This document shows positions 120 through 31,209 of a DNA stretch of 64,000 nucleotides, piece by piece. Position numbers and translations under genes: made by a program. The DNA comes from Gracilibacillus orientalis. GTDB taxonomy: Bacteria; Bacillota; Bacilli; Bacillales; Amphibacillaceae. Within the stretch, counting starts at the first letter, position 1. Every line of letters begins with the position of its first letter. The DNA lies in the NCBI RefSeq assembly GCF_900114645.1, contig NZ_FOTR01000013.1:1-64000 (forward strand), given 5' to 3'. The notes beneath the pieces are model-generated. The model was not told where the DNA came from. It saw only the letters and a list, made by a program, of their open reading frames with translations, and did no database searches.

Positions 120-148
120 CGAAAACCCACCACTTAATTGTGATGGGC
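120..148 (-). terminator. candidate terminator of the NRPS-like transcript
   Basis: On the minus strand CCCATCAC, a 6-nt loop, GTGGTGGG and then TTTT. It lies about 145 nt beyond the stop of the NRPS-like gene and faces the plus-strand terminator at 83-112, as expected for convergent transcripts. Confidence 0.5.
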
Positions 149-290: not shown

Positions 291-3290
291 TTATACTTTA
301 ACAGATAACTTTAATTTTGGTGATGCTGGAATAAAGCCTATTTTTATCATGTAGTCAAAATATATATGCAACAACGAATGATTCATCTCCGGGCATTTCA
401 ATCCGCTTTCAGCTAAAGCTACCTGAGTATTTGACGAGTCATATTTTGGCATATTTTCATATAGCTCCCATGCTGTTTTATCTTTATAAAGAGGCTCAGT
501 TAACAATGGTAAAAAAGGTGTAAGTGCATTATCGCTTTGATTAAGTGTAGATTCAACTAATTGGTCGACCCATTCTTTATAAGGAGTTTTATTGATATTA
601 TATCCCATGTTTTTATTTATTTCTTCAAAAAAATCAACAATATCTAAACTCTGATTATATGAAGGCACCAAATGATATGCTTCGCCAAAGTTAGAGGGAT
701 TTCTACTAATTTCACAGATTGCTTTTGCTACATAATCGACAGGAACGAATTCCTTTCTTTGATTCGGAAGATCACCATAAGTTCCTAATTGAATACATCC
801 TTTTATCAGTCTAGCTACATAATCTTCAGTATTGTTAACTCCGGATCTACTATGCCCCATAATGAAACCAGGCCGGAATACTGTTACTGGCACTCCTCTT
901 TTATCAGCCTCCCACATTATTTTCTCTGCAACCCATTTACTCTGTGCATATCCTATGTCTTTGTAAAGATAGGTTTCACTAAAGTTTAAATTACTATCTT
1001 CCGTTATTTTATTTATGTTAGTAAAGAAACCAATTGGACCAAATACAGAAATGGTAGAAAGATAATGTACGGGTTTTAATTTATTGGCACAAGCAAAATC
1101 CAAAATGGTTTTAGTTCCTGTTACATTAGTGTTTTTATGCAATTCATAGGACTGAACATAATTGACTTTTGCTCCGTTATGATAAATAACATCTATAGTT
1201 TCAGACAATTGAGAAAAAGCATAACTTGATAATCCGAGTTTAGGTTTGTTTAAATCACCAGTAATTGGAATAATATTATATAAAAACTCTTTTTTCCAAA
1301 TAGAATACTTCTCCATGTTTTTTTGTATACGTTGCAAACCTTTTTGAGAACTAGAGTCTCTAACTAAACAGTAAATACGTGTTTCAGGATTAGTAAATAG
1401 TAACTCTTGTATTAAAAACGCACCTAAAAATCCAGTTGCTCCAGTTAAAAATATGGCTTTTTGCTTAAAAGAAGAAGGATTAAAATGTTGTAACGGTGCG
1501 ATTTTTTGATCTAACTGAACTTCTGCTGCTAAATCTAACGATTCTGCTTTAATCGAATCCTGGTTTAAAAATGTGCAAATTTTTGCGATTGTAGGGTATT
1601 CATACAAAACACTTGCAGGTAACTTAGTTTGGAGAGATTCCTGCATTTGAATAATTGCTCGAGCAACTAATATTGAATTGCCTCCGAGATCAAAAAAATC
1701 ATCATTTACTCCTATTTTATCAACTAATAAAATCTTTTCCCAAATACTAGTCAAACTCACTTCTTCTCTTTTTCGTGGCTCTTGATAACTAATACCCAAA
1801 TCAGGGCGTGTAAACATCTTTCCTGAGGACAACGCATTCCGATCAACTTTCCCATTATTTGTTAAAGGCAACTCGTCCTTTATTACATAATTAGACGGAA
1901 GCATATAGTTTGGTAATTTTTGCTCTAGAAATGCTTTTAAATATCTCAGTTCCAAAGTCATACGATCCTTTGGAACTACAAAAGCAACCAACCTTTTATC
2001 ACCTGGTGTAACTTCGTTTACCATAACTGTACAAGCTTTTATAGATCCAAATTGTGAAATGGTAGTTTCAAGTTCACCTAGTTCTATGCGAAACCCTCGA
2101 ATCTTCACTTGATGATCGACTCTTCCCAAAAATTCTATGTTCCCATCATCTGCTTGTCGAACCAAATCACCAGTTTTGTACAACCGTTCACCATTGTGTT
2201 CAATAAATTTTTCATCAGTTAATTCTTTTCGATTCCAATAACCTCGAGCAACTCCAAGCCCACCAGCAACGAGTTCACCAATTTCCCCATCTTTTACTCT
2301 CTTTAACTGTTCATCCATAATATAAACATTTGTATTTGTTATTGCATTACCAATCGGAATATTACGATTTAGATTCCAGTTGGAAGGAATTTCAAAAAAG
2401 GTTGTAAATACAGTGTTTTCCGTCGGGCCATACCCATTAATAATGCGGGTATTTTTCAAATTTTTCTTAGCTTTTGTAGCTGAAGAAGTTGACATGACGT
2501 CTCCACCAGTTATTAAATATTTAAGTCCATTCATGTACTCCAATCTTTCTTCCACCATTAAATTAAATAGACCTGTTGTAAGAAACATGATGGATATATT
2601 ATTTTCCTTTAAAATATTACAAATACTGGTCGGTGATGCTTTTCTGAATTTGGGGATCACTAGGGTCGCACCGTTCAATAATGCCCCCCATATTTCTAGG
2701 GTCGATGCATCAAAAGATATAGTCGAAACAAGAGGTATTGTATCCTGTTTATTAATAGAAATATAATTGGTATCACAAACTAATCGTATAATTCCTTGAT
2801 GTGGCACCATCACTCCTTTAGGTGTTCCTGTAGAGCCTGAAGTATACATCATGTATGCCACATCTGTTGGTTCTACTTCTTTTTGGTGATTAATGCGATT
2901 TGCAGCTACTATTTGAGTTGATTCATTATCTAGTAGTATAGCTCCAATATTGACTACTGGCATGTTAGAAATAATAGCACTGGTTGTGATTAGAACAGAT
3001 ATTTTCGAATCTTCAATTATAAACTCGATGCGTTCTTTTGGATTTGCTGTATCAATGGGGACATATATGGCTCCAATATTCACAATAGCTAACATTGCTA
3101 CTATAAGGTCTTTTGAACGTTCAAGAGATATACCTACTCTATCTCCTTTTCGTGTACCTTTCAAAAATAAATAATTAGAAAGTTGATTGCTAGACTTCTC
3201 TAAATTCTCGTAAGTTATTTTTTCTCCGTCTACTATTAGCGCAACCTGGTCTGGTGTTTCCTTAGCATGTTTTGATAAAATAAGACTCAA
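291..3290 (-). CDS. one-module NRPS-like carboxylate reductase (A-T-R)
   Basis: This cytosolic multidomain enzyme of about 1000 residues has no condensation domain. The adenylation domain (about 1-490) shows the ATP loop YTSGSTGTPKG (149-159), FDAS (193-196), NGYGPTE (285-291), YKTGD and the NGKVDR lysine (K481). The carrier domain follows with DLGGNS (S539 is the phosphopantetheine site). A thioester reductase of the extended short-chain dehydrogenase type completes it, with GATGFLG (617-623), STIS (745-748) and YAQSK (Y781, K785). The expected chemistry is ATP-dependent activation of an acid, loading on the carrier, and NADPH-dependent release as an aldehyde. Aligning by eye to GrsA, the pocket reads DALFIGGVFK. 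D194 indicates an alpha-amino acid, and the code is closer to the Val-type codes I remember than to others; this is inference. The TTG start used here lies 22 nt from the SD, whereas an in-frame ATT at 3305-3303 has ideal spacing. Lys2-type or CAR-type reductase names are alternatives. Confidence 0.9.
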   Translation of the reverse strand: MSLILSKHAKETPDQVALIVDGEKITYENLEKSSNQLSNYLFLKGTRKGDRVGISLERSKDLIVAMLAIVNIGAIYVPIDTANPKERIEFIIEDSKISVLITTSAIISNMPVVNIGAILLDNESTQIVAANRINHQKEVEPTDVAYMMYTSGSTGTPKGVMVPHQGIIRLVCDTNYISINKQDTIPLVSTISFDASTLEIWGALLNGATLVIPKFRKASPTSICNILKENNISIMFLTTGLFNLMVEERLEYMNGLKYLITGGDVMSTSSATKAKKNLKNTRIINGYGPTENTVFTTFFEIPSNWNLNRNIPIGNAITNTNVYIMDEQLKRVKDGEIGELVAGGLGVARGYWNRKELTDEKFIEHNGERLYKTGDLVRQADDGNIEFLGRVDHQVKIRGFRIELGELETTISQFGSIKACTVMVNEVTPGDKRLVAFVVPKDRMTLELRYLKAFLEQKLPNYMLPSNYVIKDELPLTNNGKVDRNALSSGKMFTRPDLGISYQEPRKREEVSLTSIWEKILLVDKIGVNDDFFDLGGNSILVARAIIQMQESLQTKLPASVLYEYPTIAKICTFLNQDSIKAESLDLAAEVQLDQKIAPLQHFNPSSFKQKAIFLTGATGFLGAFLIQELLFTNPETRIYCLVRDSSSQKGLQRIQKNMEKYSIWKKEFLYNIIPITGDLNKPKLGLSSYAFSQLSETIDVIYHNGAKVNYVQSYELHKNTNVTGTKTILDFACANKLKPVHYLSTISVFGPIGFFTNINKITEDSNLNFSETYLYKDIGYAQSKWVAEKIMWEADKRGVPVTVFRPGFIMGHSRSGVNNTEDYVARLIKGCIQLGTYGDLPNQRKEFVPVDYVAKAICEISRNPSNFGEAYHLVPSYNQSLDIVDFFEEINKNMGYNINKTPYKEWVDQLVESTLNQSDNALTPFLPLLTEPLYKDKTAWELYENMPKYDSSNTQVALAESGLKCPEMNHSLLHIYFDYMIKIGFIPASPKLKLSVKV

Positions 3291-3511
3291 ATTATTTGGT
3301 TTAATATAAAAACCTCCTATTTTTTCATATAATTAGTTATGGAAACTGTCGATCGATTGTTTCTGCGTGCTCAGATCAAAGATCTGACTTTTCAGCGCCA
3401 GATCTATCCCAGACAGGATACAATTGATTATACCCTCTAATCCTGTTTTTGCGCTTTTAGAACAAATGTTATTATTTTAAATGAATATTTCTCACCTCCT
3501 TTAAAAATCCG

Positions 3512-3547
3512 AAAAACACAAAAACTCCGTCAAAATAGACGGAGTTT
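3512..3547 (-). terminator. riboswitch expression-platform terminator
   Basis: A perfect 10-bp stem (3522-3531 with 3538-3547) and a 6-nt loop are followed on the minus strand by TTTTTGTGTTTTT. The 5' arm contains TCCGTC, which could instead pair with GACGGA just upstream (3545-3554 region). That gives mutually exclusive terminator and antiterminator hairpins directly after the c-di-GMP aptamer. Confidence 0.9.
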
Positions 3548-3549
3548 CC

Positions 3550-3645
3550 GTCGTATTCGGCAACTGGCTGGCATAGATTTATATTTCACCTTAGCCCCTA
3601 TAGCTTTGCGTCACCACTTTTCAATGGTTTTGCTATTATCGTACG
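3550..3645 (-). promoter_or_regulatory. cyclic-di-GMP-I (GEMM) riboswitch aptamer
   Basis: Read on the minus strand, the element has all the GEMM-I landmarks in order: GCAAAACC, a GAAA tetraloop, GTGGTGACGCAAAGC, a short stem, GGGGCTAAGG, then ATGCCAGCCAGTTGCCG. The closing stem may use CGTA (near 3640) with TACG (near 3553). It sits between a minus-strand promoter and an intrinsic terminator, with the NRPS-like gene as the only downstream gene. Class I riboswitches sense the second messenger c-di-GMP. From the overlap of the closing stem with the possible antiterminator I infer a ligand-induced OFF switch, but the sign is not certain. Confidence 0.92.
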
Positions 3646-3673
3646 ATAATTCAATTATTACTATTTAAATTTT

Positions 3674-3701
3674 ATATTAAGTTTAGCACAATATTTTTCA
3701 A
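3674..3701 (-). promoter_or_regulatory. sigma-A-like promoter for the riboswitch/NRPS transcript
   Basis: TTGAAA (3701-3696), a 16-nt spacer and TAATAT (3679-3674) on the minus strand. Initiation near 3667 would begin the transcript about 20-25 nt before the aptamer. Confidence 0.6.
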
Positions 3702-4110
3702 CTAGAATTTTTATTATTTTTGTAGGATTTAAGAAAAAGTGAAAAGACCCTTACATTTTATCTTGCCATGTTAATCCAGAAGCATTATTTAATGTTTCTA
3801 CTTATTTAACTTTTATATATAAAGATATCTCTTTTGAGTAAATTATGTATAATTTAAAATAGAAACTATTTAATTACACTATTGAATAAAAGAATTTTTG
3901 ACAATATATGTCGAAAGTAATTATAGTTTTGAATTATGGATTGTGGATCCTAAAGTAATAAAACTTTCGTATTATATGATCCAAATAATTCTAATTCATG
4001 TTGTTTTCACCTTTACAGTAACTAAATAATCATATTTTGTCAATATAATACAATAATAAACTTTTTTCACCATTTTCATTTAAAAATATTTAACATTACA
4101 CAATTTCTGA

Positions 4111-4139
4111 TTAACACTATTCGAGCTTACTATTATAAT
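4111..4139 (+). promoter_or_regulatory. sigma-A promoter of the PPTase gene
   Basis: TTAACA (4111-4116), a 17-nt spacer and a perfect TATAAT (4134-4139), about 75 nt before the PPTase start. The rest of 3702-4110 is very AT-rich. I see no gene or RNA structure there, and no riboswitch on this side of the divergent pair. Confidence 0.7.
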
Positions 4140-4214
4140 GATATAGTTCTAATGTTCAGAATTTACAGGAAATTTGTTCTTTGCTATTTTACAAAATCTT
4201 AAAGAGGTGATGTT

Positions 4215-4898
4215 ATGAAAATAGTTGCCACAAAAATAGATGATTTTGACTTAACCATACGGAATCGTTTTATATCTTCGATAAGTACTGAAAGGAGATC
4301 AAGACTTGAAAAGTATCGATCTGTAAATGACCAGATTCGATCTATTGTTAGCGAACTTCTTCTGAGAAAGTCAGTAATAGATTATTGGGGGATAGAAAAT
4401 AAATACATATCATTTTACTACAATGAATATGGGAAGCCTTTTTTTCAAAATTATCCAGACTTTCATTTTAATCTTTCGCATTCAGGAGAATGGGTTACCA
4501 TTGCTTTAGATCACTTTCCAATTGGTGTTGATATTGAACATATCGTACCAATTGATCTTAAGCTCGCACACCATTTTTTTAGTCCATCAGAAATTTATCA
4601 GCTAGAGAAACAACCAATCCAAAATAGACTTTCTTACTTCTATAAAATATGGACACTAAAAGAAAGCTTTATAAAAGGTGTTGGTAAAGGATTTTTTTTA
4701 TCTCCTGAAACATTTTCATTTGATTTAAAACTTGAAAAAATTGATCGTCACCCCAAGAATATAGATACAACATATTGGACGTTTAAACATTTTTTTCTGG
4801 ATTCAAATTATGTTTTAGCCATAGCAAGTTATAATCGAAGGCCAAAAAGTATTGAAATAATATCATTTCAAAAGCTAATTAAAGAAATAGATCTATAA
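4215..4898 (+). CDS. Sfp-type 4'-phosphopantetheinyl transferase
   Basis: A 227-residue enzyme of the Sfp/Gsp family that moves the phosphopantetheine arm from CoA to a serine of carrier domains. Family motifs are visible: NLSHSG (86-91), the Mg-binding GVDIE (104-108) and WTLKESFIK (146-154), with G-GKGF following. The length fits Sfp (224) rather than the short AcpS (about 120). The SD GAGGTG lies 5 nt before the ATG. It is divergent from the A-T-R gene, whose carrier serine is its obvious substrate, so the two probably form a pair. It may also serve other carriers, and nothing in the window tests this. It has no riboswitch, so it may be expressed independently of c-di-GMP. Confidence 0.93.
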   Translation: MKIVATKIDDFDLTIRNRFISSISTERRSRLEKYRSVNDQIRSIVSELLLRKSVIDYWGIENKYISFYYNEYGKPFFQNYPDFHFNLSHSGEWVTIALDHFPIGVDIEHIVPIDLKLAHHFFSPSEIYQLEKQPIQNRLSYFYKIWTLKESFIKGVGKGFFLSPETFSFDLKLEKIDRHPKNIDTTYWTFKHFFLDSNYVLAIASYNRRPKSIEIISFQKLIKEIDL

Positions 4899-4930: not shown

Positions 4931-4962
4931 CTTAACTACATAGATTTTGTATTCACGACTTA

Positions 4963-5740
4963 TTAAAATATGCCTTTATTTAATCCACGTTGTAAAGCGT
5001 TGACAACCATAGACGGACGACTAAGGACTTTATCATAAGGTGTATCTAAAAATTTCTGTAAAGAGCCGATTGTATTAGGACCTATTAAACCATCTACTTT
5101 AGCACCAACCTTACTTTGTAGTGCTTTAATGACTAAGTTACCCTTGTTGCCATTACCGAAATCATTAGTTGTACCATTCACGTTGTTACGTACTTGATCG
5201 CTTATACGCTTATAATGCCCTCTACTACTGTATCAAGGTATTCTTGCAATGCTCTGGTGTCTTGCCATTAACTCTTAAATTAGCCGTATTTTCTAATATT
5301 TTTTATAACCACTACCGGAATTAATACACAATTCTATTGCGATTTGAATCTAAGTTACCTGGTCCATGCCTATAAGTTGCATACCAACATTGTGCATTAT
5401 CTTCAAACGACTGGATAACTTGAATATCATCTACTTGGTAATGCCAAGATGCATCACGAGGACTATCAAACTGAATTGCATTGATTACTGCCAAATCATC
5501 TATTTGCGCTTCGCCAATTATGGCACGTTTTAAATAGCCTCTTTCGATTGTCGTATTTGCGATATGAACACTTGTATTATAGCTTCGTCAATAAACGTTA
5601 AGCCATCCAAGTGTATGAGATTACCACTTATACGGATGTCTTCTTTTTTAAGGTTAATCTGTGAAACTATGCCGTCCACTTCTACTTTTAGGTATAGTCG
5701 GATAGAAGGTTTACCACCGAATAGCCAAAAGAATAGCAAA
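4963..5740 (-). pseudogene. prophage scar: tail-protein piece joined to a frameshifted amidase
   Basis: From 5739 the minus strand encodes a fragment resembling phage tail/structural proteins (GNLIHLDGLTF, then in a shifted frame ERGYLKRAIIGEAQIDDLAV). The frame then runs directly into the middle of an N-acetylmuramoyl-L-alanine amidase (ASWHYQVDD, VIQSF, NAQCW). The amidase stops at RIVY-TAA near 5323. Recognisable amidase continues in other frames (LRVNGKTPEH, then HYKRISDQVRNNV) and ends in a peptidoglycan-binding repeat (VGAKVDGLIGPNTIGSLQKFL region, 4963-5181). At least two frameshifts and a large internal deletion are needed to explain this, so neither product is functional. The 72-residue C-terminal frame alone is unlikely to be made. 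Confidence 0.8.
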
Positions 5741-5804
5741 ACAGAAATTCACACCTAAAAAATGCAGAAACTATGAGTGATTGGGGTGATGGGGGGCTAT
5801 AAAA

Positions 5805-28860: not shown

Positions 28861-30972
28861 TTAATTGTTTTCTTTTTCTTTTTCTTCAATTAGTACAGCT
28901 TTTCTTGAGAGGTTGACACGTCCTTGACGGTCGATTTCTTTTACTTTGACCATAATTTGATCGCCAATTGATACAACATCTTCTACTTTACCAATTCTTT
29001 CTTCCGCTAATTCCGAAATATGAACTAATCCTTCTTTGCCTTTAAATAATTCTACAAAAGCACCAAATTTTTCAATACGTTTCACCGTACCTAGATACAT
29101 TTGTCCAACTTCTACTTCACGAACAATATCTTCAATTACTTTTTGAGCTTTTTTGTTCATCTCCGTATTAGTGGAAGAAATAAAGACATGTCCATCTTGT
29201 TCAATATCAATTTTAACGCCAGTTTCTTCAATGATTTGATTGATTTGTTTACCACTTGGACCAATCACATCACGAATTTTATCTGGTTTAATATCCATTG
29301 TTAAAATTTTTGGAGCATAGTCAGACAATTCATTTTTAGGCTCTTGAATCGTTTCTAACATATGGGAAAGAATGTGCATGCGACCTATTTTTGCTTGGCT
29401 TAACGCTTCATCTAGGATTTCGCGAGATAAGCCTTCAATCTTAATATCCATTTGCAGCGCTGTAACACCTTTTTCTGTACCCGCCACTTTGAAGTCCATA
29501 TCTCCTAAAAAGTCTTCCATACCTTGAATATCACTTAAGATTGAATAGTCTTCACCGGTTTTGACAAGTCCCATGGCAATACCGGCAACTGGTGCTTTTA
29601 TCGGCACTCCAGAATCCATCATTGCTAATGTACTTGCACAAATACTTGCTTGAGACGTAGAACCATTAGATTCTAGTACTTCCGAAACAAGACGTATTGT
29701 ATACGGGAATTCTTTTTCATCTGGTATTACTTTTTCTAAGGCACGTTCACCTAATGCACCATGCCCAATTTCACGTCGACCTGGTCCACGGATTGGTCCT
29801 GTTTCCCCAACACTGAAAGATGGGAAATTATAGTGATGCATAAAACGTTTGGATTCTTCTGCATCTAGACCATCAAGAATTTGCACATCACCCAATGCTC
29901 CTAATGTACACACACTCAATGCTTGTGTTTGACCACGAGTGAATAGACCGGAACCATGTGTGCGAGGTAATACCCCAATTCTAGAAGATAACGATCTGAT
30001 TTCATCAATTTTTCTTCCATCTGGACGTATTTTTTCTTTTGTAATCAGTCGACGAACTTCTTCTTTCACAATTTTATCTAAAACAGCCGCAACTTGTTTT
30101 AATGTGTCAGCTTCTGCCTCAGCTTCTTCATATTCTGCTTTTATTTCTGTTTTGACTTGATCAATTGCTACCTCACGCGCATGTTTTTCTTGTACCTGTA
30201 TTGCTTTTACTAGTCGATCTTTTGCTTTCTTTTCCACTTCTTCTACAATAGAATCATTAGGTTCAAATAATTTAATATCTGTTTTTTCTACTTGTAATGC
30301 TTCAATGATTTGTTCCTGAAAAGCTATTAACCGTTTAATTTCTTCATGACCAAACATAATCGCTTCTAGCATAATTTCTTCTGGTACTTCGTCTGCTCCA
30401 GCTTCTACCATGTTAACCGCATCTTTTGTACCAGCTACCGTTAGATCAATATCACTTTTTTCACGTTCATCTAATGTTGGATTAATAACAAATTTTTCGT
30501 CTACTCTTCCTACCACGACACCTGCAATTGGTCCCGCAAAAGGTATGTCAGATACGCTTAAAGCGATCGATGAACCGATCATTGCTGCGATTTCAGATGG
30601 TAAATTCTGATCCACACTCATAACAGTACTAATTACCTGTACCTCATTCCGAAAACCATCTGGAAACAATGGTCGAATGGGACGGTCAATTAGTCTTGAT
30701 GTTAATACTGCTTTTTCACTCGGTCTACCTTCTCTTTTAATAAAACCACCTGGGATTTTACCAACCGCGTATAAACGTTCTTCATAATTGACGGTTAACG
30801 GGAAAAAAGGTAAATCTTTTGGTTCTTTTGAAGCTGTTGCAGTTGCTAATACAGCTGTGTCACCATAATGCACCATACATGCTCCATTTGCTTGTTTGGC
30901 CAACTCTCCAATTTCAACACGAAATGGCTGACCAGCTATTTCTGTTGAAAATACTTTCTTTTCTTCTACCAT
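28861..30972 (-). CDS. pnp: polynucleotide phosphorylase
   Basis: A 703-residue phosphorolytic 3'-5' exoribonuclease of the degradosome. It has two RNase PH domains joined by a helical linker, then KH ([20 protein letters not shown] region, about 555-620) and S1 ([26 protein letters not shown], about 625-690). ATG 30972 (MVEEKKVF) lies behind GAGAGGAG; the 12 codons before it are not conserved. Downstream of rpsO but with its own leader, as in other bacteria where it is autoregulated. The 269-nt gap to rpsO shows no other gene. Confidence 0.97.
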
Positions 30973-31209
30973 TATTGTACTCCTCTCAAAACAACTATGC
31001 TTGTACATTACTACTTATATTTTAGCACGTTGTTTCCACATATGTAACTAGTTCCATTTATTAAACATAATTCGGAATAATATTAGTATTTTCTATTTTG
31101 CATAGAAATAATCAATATGTCATGTATTTCTTTAACAAAAATCATGATTTCTGAAAATATATACATATTCCTTGTTAAGTTATTATTCCCACTAGTTTTT
31201 TACATACAG

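Follow-up and report, generated by a model that had tools for sequence, protein, structure and literature searches.

Aureusimine synthetase of Staphylococcus, AusA, is a two-module nonribosomal peptide synthetase (NRPS) with a condensation (C) domain and a terminal reductase (R) domain, partnered by the phosphopantetheinyl transferase (PPTase) AusB, and we know of no riboswitch before ausA. High c-di-GMP commonly accompanies attachment. HamD of Burkholderia (fragin/valdiazen) is described as an NRPS-like protein with adenylation, carrier and thioester reductase domains (A-T-R) that is required for a diffusible signal (PMC5878181). Cd1 of C. difficile is a c-di-GMP-I OFF switch whose strands T and H form the terminator and whose strands T, A and H form the antiterminator, reportedly without a detectable P1 (PMC9262584). 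In Bc2 of Bacillus thuringiensis, a GEMM-I aptamer with a terminator precedes cap/cbpA, which encodes a cell-wall adhesin (PMC4933901, PMC7423583); Bc2 responds to c-di-GMP with A11 as a ligand base, and it is an ON switch before this collagen adhesin both in vitro and in vivo (PMC4933901). Since the Bc2 terminator spans +151 to +197 and the aptamer starts at +76 (PMC4933901), the terminator must overlap the aptamer by our own arithmetic; at an offset of 9, also our arithmetic, A11, C37 and A38 become positions 20, 46 and 47, which puts an A at position 20. In the Geobacter riboswitch Gmet_0970, an A-to-G change at nucleotide 20 switches the selectivity from cGAMP to c-di-GMP (PMC6456294).

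Here we analyzed a 64,000-nucleotide stretch of the Gracilibacillus orientalis genome (hereafter the window), in which a GEMM-I leader precedes a stand-alone A-T-R gene. The same genome has a twin of this leader at another locus, where it precedes a pilin/adhesin gene.

Results

The A-T-R gene occupies 291..3305 on the minus strand. Its frame extends 5' to an AUU codon (3305-3303) and runs for 1004 codons without a stop, encoding 1004 aa if AUU is the start. The Shine-Dalgarno (SD) sequence AGGAGG (3313..3318, minus strand), which is kept in the twin leader, lies 7 nt 5' of AUU, and the TTG at 3290 taken as the start by the open-reading-frame program is 22 nt from AGGAGG. No ATG, GTG or TTG was found at a proper distance from this SD, and the start sites of aligned orthologs fall within 1-2 residues of AUU 3305, which is probably the start. 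A terminator-like hairpin (125..148, minus strand) about 140 nt past the stop codon is the probable transcript end; the contig (C9), whose first base is the window start, ends 290 bp past this stop, so the initial remark that no exporter lies close by can apply only to the other side.

Pfam matches to AMP-binding, AMP-binding_C, PP-binding and NAD_binding_4, NCBIfam matches above cut-off to TIGR01733 and TIGR01746, and the motifs YTSGSTG, GYGPTE, LGGNS, GATGFLG and YAQSK place A, T and R domains with their catalytic motifs in a single chain that has neither a C nor a TE domain, the composition of an NRPS-like A-T-R protein. The best NCBIfam model of the protein is AusA, at 749.6 bits against an equivalog cut-off of 2500, and that of the neighboring PPTase is AusB, at 82.5 bits against 225, both scores thus lying below the equivalog level; AusA and AusB are again the best models for the corresponding pair in genome G236. 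The protein is therefore probably a one-module enzyme related to aureusimine synthetase. In the PDB, the A-T portion matches gramicidin synthetase LgrA best, and the adenylation pocket, extracted by eye from this alignment, reads DALFIGGVFK as compared with DGLYIGGIMK in LgrA module 1. With the pocket position numbers, and valine as the LgrA module 1 substrate, as we take them to be, the substrate would probably be a branched-chain amino acid, most likely valine.

The same A-T-R order is found in amino-acid reductases of primary metabolism of the Lys2 or carboxylic-acid-reductase kind, and the protein does match TIGR03443 and NF041592. Such a role is nevertheless very improbable, because these matches fall far short of their equivalog cut-offs (500.1 against 1030.1 and 201.9 against 1300 bits), both are below the AusA score, and the occurrence of the gene is sporadic: A-T-R was found in one of the 17 genomes of the genus.

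The divergent gene (4215..4898, plus strand) encodes a PPTase of 227 aa with ACPS and AASDHPPT_N domains. Sfp-type enzymes are marked by the motifs GVDIE and W-x-x-KES, and the window protein carries GVDIE and WTLKES along with the N lobe of the AASDHPPT_N type. The sequence between this gene and an rny-like gene looks degenerate by eye. In searches that scored 2 to 10 candidates per genome, five A-T-R orthologs were found (G236, G159, G301, G428 and B. xiamenensis/G396), four of which were aligned with the window protein at 51-59% identity. A PPTase adjoins four of the five, and the three of these PPTases that we compared differ in type from the window enzyme (24-30% identity). Such separate pairings with PPTases of different type speak for a functional coupling of A-T-R and PPTase. 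When frames of at least 80 aa were considered, the PPTase was the only neighbor shared by the first 17 kb of the window and ortholog loci L027, L028 and L029, in agreement with an earlier proposal of a self-contained two-gene unit, while locus L018 had not even a PPTase neighbor. No GEMM-I riboswitch was detected at the four ortholog loci that were scanned for it, and a conserved three-part locus of riboswitch, A-T-R and PPTase is thus not supported.

A promoter-like sequence toward the PPTase, TTGACA-18-TATAGT (3898..3927, plus strand), matches 11 of 12 positions, in a scan that is weak as such (27 promoter-like sites, 30.9 expected in shuffles) and that we do not count as evidence. Within its spacer lies TGTCGAA (3909-3915), presumably a Spo0A box.

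The riboswitch proposed in the initial annotation was confirmed with the covariance model RF01051, which matches 3556..3644 (minus strand) over its full length (model 1-87); the match scores 73.7 bits, where the gathering score is 35, and has an E value of 1.4e-12 in a search of all 64 kb. Between the terminator and the A-T-R start no second known RNA family was found; among nine matches at E<=10, only RF01051 was above its gathering score. The other parts named at the outset, the terminator, the stand-alone A-T-R gene and the divergent Sfp-type PPTase, were all recovered as hairpin, domains and motifs. The stated order also holds, but the riboswitch is 'directly' before the gene only loosely, as about 210 nt separate the terminator from the start codon.

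Both twin aptamers carry A at position 20 (Vc2 numbering), the sequence mark of GEMM-Ib (3',3'-cGAMP) riboswitches, and neither has the G20 of the classical c-di-GMP pocket. G is found in the other 30 of the 32 distinct aptamers compared. Of 57 hits in a wider riboswitch search, 30 were retrieved, six of which did not fit the pattern applied. The c-di-GMP gating claimed initially is thus upheld for the fold and becomes less certain for the ligand. Could 3',3'-cGAMP, or both dinucleotides, be the natural ligand, with A20 as the guanine-reading base? The rarity of A20 and the selectivity change of Gmet_0970 (PMC6456294) speak for it, but Bc2, with A at the same place by offset, answers c-di-GMP (PMC4933901), so that A20 is compatible with a c-di-GMP response.

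Hypr cyclases have a serine in place of an aspartate of GGDEF proteins. The genome holds four GGDEF genes, which could supply c-di-GMP, and all four GGDEF proteins found retain the canonical aspartate, so a Hypr source of cGAMP is not supported. We regard cGAMP, alone or together with c-di-GMP, as an unlikely natural ligand; the ligand would be a cyclic dinucleotide, probably c-di-GMP.

The expression platform (3518..3558, minus strand) comprises an A strand, GAAUACGACGGA, a T strand, UCCGUCUAUUUU, and an H strand, GACGGAGUU; T and H pair as the terminator, a hairpin of 14 pairs at 3551-3518 (minus strand), and A and T pair as the antiterminator. The terminator scan is weak by itself (four terminator-like sites in 6.1 kb; shuffles 2.4, s.d. 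1.6), and identity of the switching segment with the paralogous leader at 41 of 41 bases is the better indication of a terminator. The 3' strand of the aptamer and the 5' strand of the terminator thus form the antiterminator, a Cd1-type OFF arrangement in topology only. This topology predicts that A-T-R is made at low ligand, which fits the low-ligand expression proposed initially and is not proof of it.

In an energy model that leaves out ligand, tertiary contacts and kinetics, the antiterminator GAAUACGACGGA/UCCGUCUAUUUU was the minimum-energy state until the H strand emerged, with a P1 of UCGUA/UACGA competing with it. At full length the terminator was the minimum with or without P1, so OFF switching would need to be kinetic. 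Applied to the EPS riboswitch that this genome also carries, the same topological reading gave no clear ON/OFF answer, so it is unvalidated here. It is possible that the switch is instead ON, the ligand blocking the terminator so that A-T-R and the pilin/adhesin are made at high c-di-GMP, as in the sessile state. This reading draws on the ON behavior of Bc2 before its collagen adhesin and on its A11, position 20 by offset (PMC4933901), and also on the LPXTG pilin/adhesin behind the twin leader and the common association of attachment with high c-di-GMP. However, the aptamer in the window is overlapped by the antiterminator strand and not by the core terminator, so the ligand should free the terminator, whereas the Bc2 terminator, by our arithmetic, must overlap the aptamer. 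We keep OFF as the predicted direction.

The initial annotation missed the paralogous leader. The roughly 780 bp of non-coding DNA between the PPTase and A-T-R genes (3290..4079, minus strand) has a copy at 80% identity on contig C22 (L031, 5541-6254), which includes the riboswitch, the terminator, the ribosome-binding site and the upstream region, and the gene behind it encodes an LPXTG pilin/adhesin of 2168 aa. Past 4079 the similarity is weak and reaches 4208. The copy keeps both promoter hexamers, 19 bp apart, and TGTCGAA, and it lacks 56 positions, over several gaps, of the leader spacer (3360..3504, minus strand), in which the window has a second SD-like sequence, AAAGGAGGTGAG, at 3491-3502. 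No remnant of A-T-R or PPTase was found at the C22 copy by tblastn (best E 2.0 and 8.9). When 16 congeners were queried with the 376-bp leader, as opposed to the whole block, only short aptamer-core matches appeared, in four of them. A phage or plasmid origin of the leader is not supported: three plasmid and four phage records, six of these seven from C. difficile, match just 50-78 query bases in the aptamer region, and the 24-base platform pattern had no hit in viral contigs.

The leader might be a mere passenger, a copied block that no longer regulates an A-T-R gene that is perhaps poorly translated from AUU or decaying. The missing ATG, GTG or TTG at a proper SD distance, the sporadic occurrence and the degenerate sequence beyond the PPTase would agree with this. 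We judge it quite unlikely, as the 1004 codons are stop-free and encode the catalytic motifs, the SD is 7 nt from AUU in a region where 53 of 58 bases are conserved between the twins, and the riboswitch is more conserved than the upstream flank (92% against 83% identity; Fisher p 0.012), a P2 difference from U-G to C-G keeping the pair.

Discussion

The explanation that we favor, with moderate confidence, is that A-T-R is a one-module relative of aureusimine synthetase under a GEMM-I OFF switch and is switched jointly with the pilin/adhesin through the copied block. The A domain would activate one amino acid, branched-chain and most likely valine, the Sfp-type PPTase would arm the carrier domain, and an amino aldehyde would then be released by the R domain with NAD(P)H; this aldehyde may leave unchanged, condense or be reduced. 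Transcription of A-T-R would run through the riboswitch. With the cyclic dinucleotide (probably c-di-GMP) bound, the aptamer would hold the A strand, leaving T free to form the terminator with H and stop transcription; when the ligand is scarce, A would pair with T and RNA polymerase would read through. Since the same regulatory block precedes both genes, they should switch together, and the common control region suggests one signal for both the small molecule and attachment. Standing against this explanation are the requirement for kinetic OFF switching, the ON precedent of Bc2 and A20, and further the lack of a usual start near the SD, the sporadic occurrence and the ortholog loci without a riboswitch.

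A bolder version, which we hold to be decidedly unlikely, is a portable cassette of divergent promoter region and GEMM-Ib-like (A20) OFF switch that passed from A-T-R/PPTase to the pilin/adhesin and made a two-gene regulon for 3',3'-cGAMP or both dinucleotides. If true, release of a reactive amino aldehyde would be coupled to attachment in a Gram-positive bacterium, in a regulon separate from the c-di-GMP riboswitches of G20 type that this genome also carries. On the favored explanation, a cyclic-dinucleotide signal would be linked to a one-enzyme small-molecule pathway. Two leaders in one genome that are 80% identical and precede unrelated genes offer a case for studying how a riboswitch spreads to another gene, and the A20 pair makes the ligand rule for position 20 testable in a Gram-positive genome, beyond Geobacter.

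A lichenysin precedent had been invoked for a riboswitch before an NRPS. Our literature searches for c-di-GMP riboswitches with lichenysin or nonribosomal peptides, for c-di-GMP-I riboswitches with biosynthetic gene clusters, and for A-T-R, NRPS and amino aldehyde in Bacillus found no paper on them, and PMC10535407 and PMC7911051, which came up in related searches, had no bearing on the question. The precedent nevertheless has a genomic counterpart: in genome G059, a c-di-GMP-I riboswitch lies immediately 5' of an NRPS condensation domain. As in the window, GEMM-I precedes an NRPS, but there the condensation domain comes first, position 20 is G and the platform sequence is another. AusA and AusB are the best models for both window proteins, yet the AusA model is 2373 aa long, and the window A-T-R has one A and one T domain with no condensation domain among its Pfam matches, so a dipeptide aldehyde is not expected; the window PPTase gene is, moreover, divergent from A-T-R. 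HamD and its Mgo/Pvf relatives are also close, HamD sharing the A-T-R architecture, but HamD works together with further ham enzymes, none of which is adjacent to the window gene, where one side has 290 bp to the contig end. Bc2 resembles the window leader in A at position 20 (by offset) and, through the C22 twin, in the adhesin downstream; it differs as an ON switch whose terminator overlaps the aptamer, whereas the window platform is Cd1-like and has its second copy before A-T-R. Cd1 has the same platform arrangement as the window leader, which differs from it in a possible P1, UCGUA/UACGA, and may differ in A20.

The A-T-R locus

On the minus strand, covariance-model search matched RF01051 at 3556-3644 with 73.7 bits, and this GEMM-I aptamer is followed on its 3' side by a strong hairpin with a U-rich tail (3518-3551), a spacer of ~210 nt and the SD AGGAGG, before a frame of 1004 codons with AMP-binding, carrier and thioester-reductase domains (A-T-R, 291-3305). 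A gene for a 227-aa protein, an Sfp-type phosphopantetheinyl transferase (PPTase) by its domain content, starts at 4215 on the plus strand. The arrangement of riboswitch, terminator, A-T-R and divergent PPTase proposed in the initial annotation is thus borne out by the aptamer, hairpin and domain matches, and the system is real and somewhat unusual. The SD of the A-T-R has no ATG, GTG or TTG at suitable spacing. An AUU at 3305 lies 7 nt past the SD and, by alignment, at most 1-2 residues from the ortholog starts, and the TTG at 3290 lies 22 nt from the SD; judged from the sequence, the start probably needs correcting to AUU 3305. A terminator-like hairpin (125-148) stands 3' of the A-T-R, and beyond it the window begins at the contig end (C9:1).

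Elsewhere in the window, the stretch between the PPTase and an rny-like gene (4960-5800) is decayed coding-like sequence resembling, by eye, a lysin with peptidoglycan-binding repeats, and an RF01494 rliD match (30799-31058, plus strand; 50.3 bits, gathering 50) lies antisense to a pnp-like frame (28861-31008, minus strand).

A duplicated regulatory block

The strongest new point is that one regulatory block occurs in duplicate, connecting a one-module NRPS with a pilin/adhesin, and that the ligand-reading base is changed in both copies. When the 376-bp leader (3295-3670) was searched in 17 genomes of the genus, a second copy of the full-length type was found only in the same genome, on contig C22, and matches in congeners covered 43-82 bases of the aptamer core in 4 of 16. 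Pairwise blastn aligned the two copies over 526/660 positions (80%; 57 of the positions are gaps) and 53/59 around the SD, with a weak match of 45/60 (E 0.003) beside the PPTase start. The similarity therefore extends beyond the riboswitch, covering most of the non-coding DNA that separates the PPTase and A-T-R genes and stopping near both coding regions. Identity is 92.9% (92/99) in the aptamer with its 5' hairpin, 90.2% (46/51) in the platform and 83.4% (322/386) upstream of the riboswitch (riboswitch versus upstream region, Fisher p 0.012), and a 41-base switching segment has the same sequence in both.

The gene that follows the C22 copy encodes 2168 aa, with SpaA repeats and a signal of the LPXTG type; the protein scores above cut-off for the SpaH/EbpB pilin family, and the gene is preceded by an SD of its own ~180 nt beyond the copied block. 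At this site tblastn found no A-T-R or PPTase remnants. At the A-T-R locus a promoter-like TTGACA/TATAGT (3898-3927, plus strand, spacer 18) points to the PPTase and carries in its spacer TGTCGAA, which we take to be a Spo0A box. Its C22 counterpart (L031, ~5700-5720, spacer 19) has no gene downstream. The C22 copy thus keeps a promoter-like site that faces no gene, and it also keeps an SD of the A-T-R type and, with no frame behind it, the ATATTAAA context; these leftovers hint that the A-T-R locus might be the source of the block.

Four GEMM-I riboswitches were found in this genome, before an EPS-type cluster (C17), the pilin/adhesin gene, the A-T-R gene and on C10, the last being a c-di-GMP-I-GGC variant (G000:C10:46648-46736; Rfam RF03167, 65.1 bits) with a Pyr_redox_2 gene ~500 nt on. 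Of 9 genomes chosen from the family of Bacillus xiamenensis (G396), 7 have GEMM-I matches, and single genomes contain 13 (G479) and 11 (G489) of these riboswitches. In C. difficile phages and plasmids (records H31-H36) there is a segment that shares 79% identity with the aptamer region.

Distribution and function of the A-T-R enzyme

The A-T-R was found in 1/17 genomes of the genus (E <= 1e-120), 1/159 of the family (1e-200) and 9/397 of an order-wide sample (1e-150). The nine comprise the own genome, four stand-alone orthologs at 51-59% (G236, G159, G301 and B. xiamenensis, the only named match), longer frames of 4610 aa (G259) and 1486 aa (G275), and two frames of 977 aa, 34% identical and interrupted by one stop in the matched part (G353, G373). 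The family of G236 has it in 5/41 genomes, adding G428, and that of B. xiamenensis in 2/80; in the class it was found in 2/398, the own genome and a 4000-aa frame (G896). Sequences resembling the A-T-R are common elsewhere: of 160 plasmid records with a match, 64 have one place that spans 80% or more of the protein, with identity below 60%.

A PPTase of 220-223 aa lies immediately upstream of the A-T-R on the same strand in G236, G159, G301 and G428 (the last by eye, from its start); none was seen within the 14 kb surrounding the B. xiamenensis gene. The three of these PPTases that were compared are 24-30% identical to that of the window. The window PPTase is closer to that of the C14 NRPS cluster (41% over 153 aa), and the genome has three PPTase-superfamily genes in all. 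No neighbour protein other than the PPTase is common to the window locus and the ortholog loci; L027 and L028 also have a lipoprotein-like pair in common (34%). Conservation of the three-part locus elsewhere, which the initial annotation proposed to check, was not supported, as no GEMM-I was detected at four ortholog loci (L027, L028, L029, L018) even at E 0.5. Thus A-T-R and PPTase are found together repeatedly, with neither the kind of PPTase nor the order of the genes constant, and the riboswitch appears to have been added in this lineage. The precedent given in the initial annotation, a c-di-GMP riboswitch before an NRPS gene, has a genomic counterpart, since one match of the B. xiamenensis family scan, a c-di-GMP-I riboswitch at G059:C1:348949-349041 (L059), directly precedes an NRPS that begins with a condensation domain and by eye resembles srfAA/lchAA.

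The best NCBIfam models are AusA and AusB. The adenylation pocket, read by eye from an LgrA alignment at positions presumed from GrsA numbering, is DALFIGGVFK (DAFFIGAVFK and DSFFVGGIFK in two orthologs), which would suit a branched-chain residue such as valine. HamD is an example of an A-T-R protein with a role in making a signal (PMC5878181).

Ligand of the riboswitch

We take position 20 to be the first G of GGCAAA in Vc2. It is A (UAGCAAA) in both twins and G in the other 30 of 32 distinct aptamers, namely those in the retrieved loci that fitted the pattern (30 of the 57 hits of the B. xiamenensis family scan were retrieved, and 6 of these 30 did not fit). In the contact list of PMC7288161, G20 reads one guanine of the ligand, and according to PMC6456294 replacing A by G at this nucleotide shifts a cGAMP riboswitch of Geobacter to c-di-GMP. 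A response to c-di-GMP is, however, described for Bc2 of B. thuringiensis, in which the ligand is bound by A11, C37 and A38, equivalent to positions 20, 46 and 47 when 9 is added; cGAMP is not mentioned in the passages seen (PMC4933901). The four GGDEF proteins found in the genome have the canonical aspartate and not the Hypr serine (three by pattern, the fourth, L086, by eye). Given the response of Bc2 and these GGDEF proteins, c-di-GMP is probably the ligand despite A20.

Direction of switching

In the platform, UCCGUC is flanked by two copies of GACGGA. The first GACGGA, within GAAUACGACGGA, lies immediately after the aptamer and can form an antiterminator with UCCGUCUAUUUU, which in the energy model is the minimum-energy state until the second arm emerges; the second can pair with UCCGUC as a terminator (core -14.1 kcal/mol). 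A possible P1 (UCGUA/UACGA) occupies the antiterminator strand. Because the terminator is the energy minimum of the full-length leader with or without P1, the effect of switching would have to be kinetic. The same topological reading gave no clear answer for the EPS riboswitch of this genome. Bc2-cap is an opposite precedent, an ON switch whose terminator overlaps its aptamer by the coordinates given (PMC4933901). The platform is arranged like that of Cd1 in the scheme of PMC9262584, in which the antiterminator of Cd1 is said to have transient stability, and by this likeness the riboswitch would, on balance, be an OFF switch.
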